Source: a virus
Virus record (IMG/VR): IMGVR_UViG_3300042453_003743
Coordinates: 1-64,000 of that record
Direction: 5' to 3' (one strand)
Length of the DNA: 64,000 nucleotides
Shown here: positions 59,402 through 61,990 of the stretch, piece by piece
Numbering within the stretch: position 1 is the stretch's first letter
Layout: each line of letters opens with the position of its first letter
Made by a program: the position numbers and the translations under genes
The notes under the pieces: generated by a model
Databases searched by the model: none
Told to the model about the DNA's origin: nothing
Seen by the model: the letters and a program-made list of their open reading frames with translations, nothing else

Positions 59402-60064
59402 ATGGAAATTTTAAAACAAATAAACTCATTTTTACCAAAATATAAAACTACCTTGCCTTTTTGTAAAAAAGAAGTAATTTTTGTGCCTTTTAGAGTAAAA
59501 GATGCAAAAAATATAGCTACAATTTTACAAGAACAAAACAGACATCTTGCTTTTATAGCAATGATTGATATTGTTAAAAGGAACTGCGAAAATATAAATC
59601 CAAATGATTTGTGTCTAGCGGACGCAGAATATCTTTTTTTACAAATAAGATCAAAGAGTGTTGATGAAACTTTAAATCTTATTTACAATAAAGAAAAAAT
59701 TCAAGTTAACATATCCGAGATAAAACCAATAAATGAAATACAAGAACAACAAATAAACATAGGAAACGACATTTCTATTGTTGTAAAAACACCAACTATA
59801 AAAAATTTGTTAAAATTAAAAAATACAGAAAAAGAAGATTTTATAAAAGCATCAATTAAGAATGTAATATTAAAAAATGAAATATACGATTGTTCAAAGT
59901 TTGTGCCAGAAGAATTAAAAGAAATACTAGCAAATCTCCCCCTATCGATTATAACAAAATTGGATGATTTTTTGAAAAAAGAACCACAGTTAAAATTGGA
60001 AGTTAATACATCGGAGGGAAAAAAGGAGGCATCTGGATTACTAAATTTTTTTACTTATCGGTAA
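59402..60064 (+). CDS. gp26: Baseplate hub protein gp26-like (220 aa), 0-frame product
   Basis: Pattern LPFCKKEVIFVPFRVKDAKNIATILQEQ, DIVKRNCENINPNDLCLADAEYLFLQIRSKSVDETLNLIYN matches the T4 gp26 baseplate family (PF12322 type), in which the D-x-E-Y-L-F-L-x-I-R-x-K-S block is diagnostic. Start set to ATG 59402, overlapping no stop; an in-frame TTG four codons earlier was rejected. Near its end lies an AGGAGG (60024-60029), a slippery A AAT TTT (60043-60049) and a stem-loop (60060-60105). A -1 shift there would fuse 216 residues of gp26 to 70 residues of the next frame (286 aa) in place of the 220-aa product. Confidence 0.82.
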   Translation: MEILKQINSFLPKYKTTLPFCKKEVIFVPFRVKDAKNIATILQEQNRHLAFIAMIDIVKRNCENINPNDLCLADAEYLFLQIRSKSVDETLNLIYNKEKIQVNISEIKPINEIQEQQINIGNDISIVVKTPTIKNLLKLKNTEKEDFIKASIKNVILKNEIYDCSKFVPEELKEILANLPLSIITKLDDFLKKEPQLKLEVNTSEGKKEASGLLNFFTYR

Positions 60065-60105
60065 AGTTTTTTGATCTAGCTGATTATTTTTCTACAAACT
60101 TTACC
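60024..60105 (+). promoter_or_regulatory. Candidate -1 programmed frameshift signal in gp26
   Basis: Three elements in order: internal Shine-Dalgarno AGGAGG (60024-60029), 13 nt, slippery heptamer A AAT TTT in the gp26 frame (60043-60049), 10 nt, then GGTAAAGTTT (60060-60069) that pairs perfectly with AAACTTTACC (60096-60105). The 0-frame stop (60062-60064) lies in the stem. The -1 frame is open from the slip site into the gp51-like frame. Confidence 0.75.
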
Positions 60106-60261
60106 ATGATGTACAAATATAATTGGTCGTTGAATGAAATAGAATCTATGTGCCCATGGGAAAGAGAAATTTACTTAAACTTAATAGTAACAAACGAAGA
60201 AAAAAAGAAACAGTATGAAATGGAACAAGCAATGTTAAGAGGAGGTATGCCCAATGGATGA
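60106..60261 (+). CDS. gp51-like baseplate hub assembly reading frame (51 aa if separate)
   Basis: The frame MMYKYNWSLNEIESMCPWEREIYLNLIVTNEEKKKQYEMEQAM resembles the short protein that follows gp26 in T4-like marine phages, where W-x-L-x-E-x-x-x-M-x-P-W-E-R-x-I-Y is the core. In T4 gene 51 follows 26. No ribosome-binding site precedes the tandem ATGs, and the first ATG lies directly against the end of a stem-loop. The frame stays open 57 nt upstream to the slippery site, so it may be made mainly as the C-terminal part of a gp26 frameshift fusion. It overlaps the next start (ATGGATGA). Confidence 0.7.
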   Translation: MMYKYNWSLNEIESMCPWEREIYLNLIVTNEEKKKQYEMEQAMLRGGMPNG

Positions 60262-60820
60262 AGAAAATATATCAATGGATTTTGAGGCAGAAAAACAACT
60301 GATGTCTCCTATAATCCAATTCAATGAATCCGATGAGGTTGAAGCTCTTCAAAATCCAATGTTTGAAACTCCATTACCAGAACCAATCTTGATAAAAAGT
60401 AATGATATTGAGTTAAATTCAGAGCCTATTATAAATTCTTTTTCAGATCAAAATCAAACAGCACAAAATAGTCTATTACCAGAACCAGAATTTATTGCAG
60501 AAACAATGCAGATACAGCTGCCTGAAGCAGAGTACATAGTTCCAACCAAAACAACAGATTCATTTTCAACGCAACAGGTTCAGTCACAGTTTTCTAAAAC
60601 TATGCAGTCTTCGACAGTAAATAACGATCTGGATATTGTTTACCAAAAAACCAAAACGCTAGAAGCGGAGATAATTGATATCCAAAATGCAAATATCAAA
60701 GATGGTTGGTTGCAAACAAATGAAAAGGATAGGTTCGAAGAAAGGCCAACAGTAGAACCCAATAATCTTGTTTTTGAACAAAGAAAAATGAGGATGTCAA
60801 CTTTGCCCGAATGGGCATAA
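60254..60820 (+). CDS. Acidic, probably disordered protein after gp26/51 (188 aa)
   Basis: Not recognised. Glu/Asp/Gln/Pro-rich with repeated PEPILI/PEPEFIAE/PEAEYIVP short units between residues 30 and 100 and a C-terminal coil (VYQKTKTLEAEIIDIQNANIKDGWLQ). Ends FEQRKMRMSTLPEWA. It has a strong AGGAGG with 8-nt spacing and is the last gene of this plus-strand unit, ended by a hairpin terminator. Its place after hub assembly genes hints at a tail chaperone or small structural protein. No large tape measure gene is seen here. Confidence 0.65.
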   Translation: MDEENISMDFEAEKQLMSPIIQFNESDEVEALQNPMFETPLPEPILIKSNDIELNSEPIINSFSDQNQTAQNSLLPEPEFIAETMQIQLPEAEYIVPTKTTDSFSTQQVQSQFSKTMQSSTVNNDLDIVYQKTKTLEAEIIDIQNANIKDGWLQTNEKDRFEERPTVEPNNLVFEQRKMRMSTLPEWA

Positions 60821-60844
60821 AAAAAGCCCCTTTCGGGGCTTTTT
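60821..60844. terminator. Bidirectional terminator between converging units
   Basis: AAAAAGCCCC-TTTC-GGGGCTTTTT: perfect 10-bp stem with 4-nt loop and A/T tails on both sides, directly between the stop of the 188-aa gene and the gp32 stop. Serves both strands. Confidence 0.92.
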
Positions 60845-61701
60845 CAATCTTTATCCATTTCTGAGAAATACTGCAGTGGATCTTTATCCTCTACATCCTC
60901 AACAACAGAAGTTTCCTCAACATCATCTTCAATGCTCTTGCTTTCGGTAAATTGTGCACGAATGTCGTCCCCAACAGACTTCTTGAAACGAGCATTGAGT
61001 TCGTCAAAACTCTTAAACTGACTCTTATCAACAAAGGGCTTGAGGGGATATTGCTTCTTCCAAATTTCCTCAAGTTTTTTATCATCCCCACCAAATAGAG
61101 GTGCTGGAGAAGAAAATTCGCTGCGGTCGTAATTTACATAACCACCAACATTTCGAATTTTAATTTTAAAATCTGCCCCAGACCAAAAATTAAATGGATC
61201 CACGGCGACTTCGTCCTGAAACTCTGGATGCGCTAGGCTTTGAATTTTTTGAAAGATTTTTGTTCCGTATTGATAAAGAAAAACTTTTCCCTTGTTTTCC
61301 GGATTTGCTGGGTCTTCGATGACCAAGATATTTGAAATATAGGTTAGCTTGCGCTTACGTTGACGTGCAACGTTTTTATCATCTTCAATTCCACTATTCC
61401 AAAGTTCAGTATTTGCCGAACAGACCGGACATTTTTCACCAATAGTGGTAGGACAATTTTCATAAAACCATCCACCCTTACCTTTAAATGTGTGGCTATA
61501 GACGGCGACAAACGGACTATCTTCTCCGGCAATTTCAGGAAGAAAACGGATAACAGCATATCCATTTCCAGCCTTATCAATACCTGGCTTCCACAGCCTC
61601 TCGTCTTTATACCCCTCTTTAGAGGTCATCTTATCAAGACGCTCGGTGAGTGCTGCGACTGAATTCTTACTCTTCTTTTTAAAATCTGAAAAATTTCCCA
61701 T
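60844..61701 (-). CDS. gp32: Single-stranded DNA-binding protein gp32
   Basis: 285 residues from ATG 61701 (T4: 301). N-terminal basic block NFSDFKKKSKNSVAALTERLDKM (LAST-like cooperativity region), OB-fold core with zinc ligands in FYENCPTTIGEKCPVCSANTELW, then RQRKRKLTYISNILVIEDPANPENKGKVFLYQYGTKIFQKI and an acidic C-terminal tail for partner binding. Covers single strands in replication and recombination. A 21-residue longer reading was rejected because GGGGAAAG precedes 61701 at good distance and the family starts there. Confidence 0.95.
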   Translation of the reverse strand: MGNFSDFKKKSKNSVAALTERLDKMTSKEGYKDERLWKPGIDKAGNGYAVIRFLPEIAGEDSPFVAVYSHTFKGKGGWFYENCPTTIGEKCPVCSANTELWNSGIEDDKNVARQRKRKLTYISNILVIEDPANPENKGKVFLYQYGTKIFQKIQSLAHPEFQDEVAVDPFNFWSGADFKIKIRNVGGYVNYDRSEFSSPAPLFGGDDKKLEEIWKKQYPLKPFVDKSQFKSFDELNARFKKSVGDDIRAQFTESKSIEDDVEETSVVEDVEDKDPLQYFSEMDKD

Positions 61702-61756
61702 GTGTTTCTTTCCCCAAGGAACTACCTTGGCCTTTGTTAAAGTATTATAGTAGCAA

Positions 61757-61990
61757 TCATTCAAAAGGCAAACGTTTTATTTTTCTTTTTTTGATAAAGT
61801 GCAAAGTTATTGCTTCTGCTTCAATTTTTTCTATTAACGGCTTGGTTAGCAATTTTCCAGCAGCATTCGGTTCAATATTCATCTCTTCTGCAAGTTCTAA
61901 AACACAATCCATAAAAGGTAGTTTTGTAGATTTTACTCTCTCTATTACCTTAGTAGAAAATTTTTCTTTTGCAGAATCATCTATGTACAT
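61757..61990 (-). CDS. gp33: Late-transcription co-activator gp33
   Basis: 77 residues from ATG 61990 (T4: 112). The end (LTKPLIEKIEAEAITLHFIKKRKIKRLPFE) fits the gp33 C-terminal pattern (IIEKIQSEAIDENLL..), including the last hydrophobic residues that bind the gp45 clamp. FMDCVLELAEEMNIEPNAAGK resembles the middle. It bridges RNA polymerase to the clamp and, with gp55, starts late genes. The neighbouring gp32 is its usual partner. The extra 28 N-terminal residues of the long reading were rejected. Promoter-like -10 lies 5 nt before the ATG, with no ribosome-binding site. Confidence 0.82.
   Translation of the reverse strand: MYIDDSAKEKFSTKVIERVKSTKLPFMDCVLELAEEMNIEPNAAGKLLTKPLIEKIEAEAITLHFIKKRKIKRLPFE

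Follow-up and report, generated by a model that had tools for sequence, protein, structure and literature searches.

The 3′ end of the gp26-like gene in an uncultured T4-like virus raises the question of whether the short gp51-like reading frame behind it represents a gene of its own, or is translated as an extension of gp26. The window, i.e., the whole stretch of 64,000 nucleotides analyzed here, originates from a 137-kb virus record of the IMG/VR database, and its relevant features are compiled in Table 1. The gp26 frame ends with the codons CTA AAT TTT TTT ACT TAT CGG TAA, its stop codon (60062–60064) being located within the 5′ arm of a stem-loop formed by a perfect 10-bp inverted repeat. 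No stop codon occurs in the −1 frame from the slip site through position 60258, and the predicted products have lengths of 220 aa (0-frame) and 286 aa (−1 fusion). The original prediction had named an AGGAGG motif (60024–60029) and the inverted repeat, both of which were located where it had placed them, and its description of the stop codon within the stem, the open −1 frame, and the two products was likewise confirmed from the sequence. Furthermore, the −1 programmed frameshift that it had proposed between gp26 and the gp51-like domain, analogous to that of lambda G/GT, is strongly supported by the comparative evidence presented below. The locus very probably represents the tail-assembly-chaperone pair of a T4-like phage, in which a −1 shift on a run of seven U residues (U7), aided by a Shine-Dalgarno-like (SD) element and a stem, would yield the short and the long form.

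Table 1. Features of the gp26–gp51 junction and of the adjacent genes, with positions referring to the window.
Feature	Position	Strand	Evidence or remark
gp26/TAC-N, 0-frame ORF, 220 aa	59402–60064	+	PF12322 (T4_baseplate) E 7.6e-26; phrog_150 E 7.5e-25
Internal Shine-Dalgarno-like AAGGAGG(T/C), likely upstream stimulator	60023–60030	+	AAGGAGGT in 31/37 distinct junctions
Slippery heptamer U_UUU_UUU, predicted −1 shift site	60046–60052	+	In register in 51/51 distinct gp26-only junctions; U UUU UUU/C in 15/15 cultured T4-like phages
−1 extension, gp51-like C-terminal domain (TAC-C), stop codon included	60046–60261	+	phrog_634 E 2.5e-16; phrog_150 columns 232–278; T4 gp51 C-terminus
Stem-loop 5′ arm, holding the 0-frame stop TAA (60062–60064)	60060–60069	+	9 core pairs in 37/37 sequences
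Stem-loop 3′ arm	60096–60105	+	Folding, covariation
188-aa ORF	60254–60820	+	Overlapping with the 3′ end of the gp51 frame (stop 60259–60261); closely preceded by its own GGAGG
gp32-like single-strand DNA binding protein	60844–61764	opposite	phrog_224 E 3e-107

Two candidate heptamers are contained in the sequence AAATTTTTTTAC (60043–60054), and the original prediction had favored the canonical A_AAT_TTT (60043–60049). A first set of relatives was found by means of peptide patterns in the −1 frame or covering the junction, and may overstate the conservation of the latter; it was replaced by the results of a search with a gp26-only alignment trimmed at its C-terminus, which provided 51 distinct junctions. 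All 51 featured the seven Ts in the same register and, 9 nt farther on, the 0-frame stop, past which the −1 frame remained open for 182–197 nt. Conservation was not observed for A_AAT_TTT, since the third base of codon 214 varied (TTA, CTA, CTT, CTC, CTG, and TTG) and the next codon was AAT, ACT, AGT, or CGT, with the final T alone being fixed. Moreover, a −1-frame stop directly abuts U7 in 7 of the 51 junctions, indicating that the frame can be entered only on or after U7. Synonymous loss of the heptamer, regarded beforehand as an observation that would speak against the shift, was indeed detected as a CTA-to-CTT change in the closest relatives. It refutes A_AAT_TTT and nothing beyond that heptamer, U7 being retained. 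The predicted shift site is U_UUU_UUU, and the spacings, previously given as 13 nt (SD) and 10 nt (stem), amount to 16 nt and 7 nt when measured from U7.

Concerning the protein encoded in the −1 frame, phrog_634 represents the baseplate hub assembly catalyst, gp51, and phrog_150 the gp26 family; the match to the latter (Table 1) indicates that some gp26-family members carry both parts in one protein. T4 gp51 (249 aa) matches PF12322 with its residues 1–201, and phrog_150 (columns 13–280) as well as phrog_634 through the C-domain. In the alignment, the end of T4 gp26 lies no more than a few residues from the slip point, and T4 gp51 continues with the −1-frame-encoded sequence, including the residues before the supposed gp51 ATG (C-domain vs. 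T4 gp51: P = 0.0022 over 35 columns with 40% identity). The relation between gp26 and T4 gp51 rests on the Pfam and PHROG matches, a direct profile comparison with the gp26 alignment being uninformative. Judged from these similarities, T4 gp26 corresponds to the short form, and T4 gp51, composed of a gp26-like domain and the same C-domain, represents the fusion in a naturally in-frame form. A sub-threshold match of the gp51-like domain (60046–60258) to PF20546 (DUF6760, E = 0.0045) was also recorded, possibly reflecting a distant relation to this family of unknown function.

A separate gp51 gene translated without frameshifting, for which the ATG at position 60106 would be used by reinitiation or coupling once gp26 has been terminated, is very improbable. 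Two consecutive ATG codons (60106–60111) are available for this purpose, and public annotations present gp51 as its own short ORF with a downstream start, or omit it. However, 41 of the 51 junctions lack a −1-frame ATG nearby, and the one found here is not preceded by a Shine-Dalgarno sequence and abuts the stem, as had been noted originally. In addition, the peptide stretch preceding the putative start codon shows little variation (FFYLSVKF.DL....NF) and has its homologous counterpart in T4 gp51, and the conservation of U7 would be left unexplained by a separate gene.

Cultured phages provide further evidence for the fusion by a −1 shift. The site U_UUU_UU(U/C), with the −1 frame continuing uninterrupted into the gp51 domain, was present in all 15 cultured T4-like phages examined, representing several families (S-CAM1, HTVC008M, Melnitz-3, S-PM2, Atu_ph04, S-BM3, DLP6, Cr30, phiM12, ValKK3, D484, pf16, Mosig, DSL-LC03, and S-SSM7). 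In 14 of them, it was located close to the 0-frame stop, Mosig being the exception with a stop about 25–30 nt past the site. T4 differs in that genes 26 and 51 are separate and divergently oriented, making a frameshift impossible; the same divergent orientation was found in Aeromonas phage 60AhydR15PP, and both phages use two genes. The Vibrio phages ValKK3 (Schizotequatrovirus, belonging with T4 to the Straboviridae) and D484 (L158 938–1953, L159 932–1953) keep the U UUU UUC arrangement, indicating that not all members of the family share the two-gene layout of T4. The frameshift reading would correct many T4-like genomes whose annotation gives gp51 as a small gene of its own or lacks it. In 2010, cyanophage gp51 was noted to be devoid of the first ~200 residues of T4 gp51 (PMC3037559), which would be explained by the frameshift arrangement.

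Selection at the codon level was evaluated for 28 representatives sharing <90% identity. Synonymous variability of gp26 corresponded to 0.96 of the expectation over codons 1–195, and decreased to 0.45 for the final eight codons. Lys208 was encoded by AAG in 25 of 26 sequences (family-wide 14%), Glu209 by GAG in 23 of 27 (11%), and Arg220 by CGG in 27 of 27 (5%). The codons fixed against the bias coincide with the SD (AAG and GAG) and the base of the stem (CGG), pointing to clear nucleotide-level selection on both elements.

The stem region showed fold z-scores of −2.6 to −3.1. Among 37 sequences, compensatory changes were detected at two stem pairs (A-U/G-C and G-C/A-U), and the covariation value of 0.076 vs. 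0.050 in shuffles (none of 500 being as high) exceeded those of all slid registers, in a set drawn largely from junction-biased relatives and comprising few independent events. Significant downstream folds were also found in the cultured relatives S-PM2, pf16, S-SSM7, and Melnitz-3, with others lacking them, and an Rfam search of the junction element gave no match. As expected for −1 programmed ribosomal frameshifting, a 0-frame X_XXY_YYZ heptamer, namely U7, is thus accompanied by stimulators under selection, as deduced from the SD codon bias and the stem covariation. This evidence also bears on transcriptional slippage on the T7 run, instead of ribosomal slippage, as the origin of the fusion. 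A homopolymer of 7 bases, present in a genome rich in A and T, would suit such a process, but TTTTTTC, a short run, is all that some relatives keep, and selected SD codons together with a covarying stem are expected of a ribosomal mechanism, making the transcriptional route very improbable. Chance, or degeneration of a gene junction, as the origin of the layout can practically be dismissed: AT-rich DNA frequently contains poly-T runs, but a heptamer with an upstream SD and a stem of at least 9 bp is expected 0.017 times per 128 kb (Markov-1 shuffles), the window contains one such locus, and the arrangement is conserved in 51 of 51 junctions and across cultured phages.

Under the ribosomal −1 shift, the majority of ribosomes would read gp26 up to the UAA at 60062 and release the short form (TAC-N). 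On some ribosomes, both tRNAs would slip back by one base on U_UUU_UUU, helped by pairing of the internal AAGGAGG with the 16S rRNA and by the stem-loop downstream, and the long form (TAC-NC) would be completed with its C-domain homologous to the T4 gp51 C-terminus. Like lambda gpG/gpGT, both forms would most likely cover the tape-measure protein and bring in subunits of the tail tube.

This kind of switch is already known in T4-like phages, as the corresponding TAC genes were identified by Vladimirov, Gautam, and Davidson (2022, Virology 566:9–15; referred to in PMC10885494 and PMC12846349), their TAC-N genes are known to contain polyT signals (PMC12846349), and some T4-like phages possess two genes instead of the shift (PMC10885494). 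In view of the 2022 publication, the original remark that no such shift was known for T4 genes 26/51 no longer holds. The case presented here is a further member of this group, sharing with it the gene families, the predicted short and long forms, and the predicted −1 shift on a poly-T signal, but representing an uncultured lineage in which the stem covaries and comprises 9–10 bp, and a nearly perfect SD is located 16 nt from U7. Compared to the 2022 paper, as represented by its title and the papers citing it, the present analysis adds a new lineage, a precisely located shift site, and the evidence for the SD and the covarying stem. The abstract of the 2022 paper reportedly names T4 genes 26 and 51 and mentions frameshifting in several T4-like groups. 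In lambda G/GT, a −1 shift close to the terminus of the short form likewise yields a chaperone with a C-terminal extension, but the protein family and the slippery site are different. The three-part layout of upstream SD, slippery heptamer, and downstream stem-loop is the same as in Escherichia coli dnaX, where the slippery site is A_AAA_AAG and the SD is located ~10 nt from it, so the spacing between AAGGAGG and U7 is longer here. It is a tentative and rather doubtful suggestion that this element is unusually elaborate and confers a TAC-NC:TAC-N ratio exceeding that of other T4-like phages, or a regulated one. Given the clear covariation and SD selection, the lineage should be a good experimental model for frameshifting in T4-like tail chaperones.

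By analogy with lambda G/GT, a function as tail-assembly chaperone is likely. Lambda-type tail assembly chaperones are characterized by short and long forms produced from one start (PMC5009743). As in TAC-N/TAC-NC pairs, the short ORF ends in a slippery site followed by an open, conserved frame into the C-domain, and both parts are homologous to T4-like gp26 and gp51 (PF12322, phrog_150, and phrog_634). The AF2 model of gp26 reached a pLDDT of 90, and the HK97 TAC (2ob9) was among its highest-probability Foldseek matches in the PDB (0.38–0.44), representing a weak similarity (E = 0.78–1.2); when the gp26 profile was compared with PDB sequences, nothing relevant was retrieved.

In Cr30, HTVC008M, and phiM12, the pair is located upstream of an annotated tape-measure-like gene, with one small ORF in between. 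Within the window, no tape-measure gene directly follows the pair, and none was identified among the window proteins scanned. The 188-aa ORF behind the gp51 frame had no Pfam or PHROG match. The position of the tape-measure gene in other T4-like phages is occupied here by the gp32-like gene.
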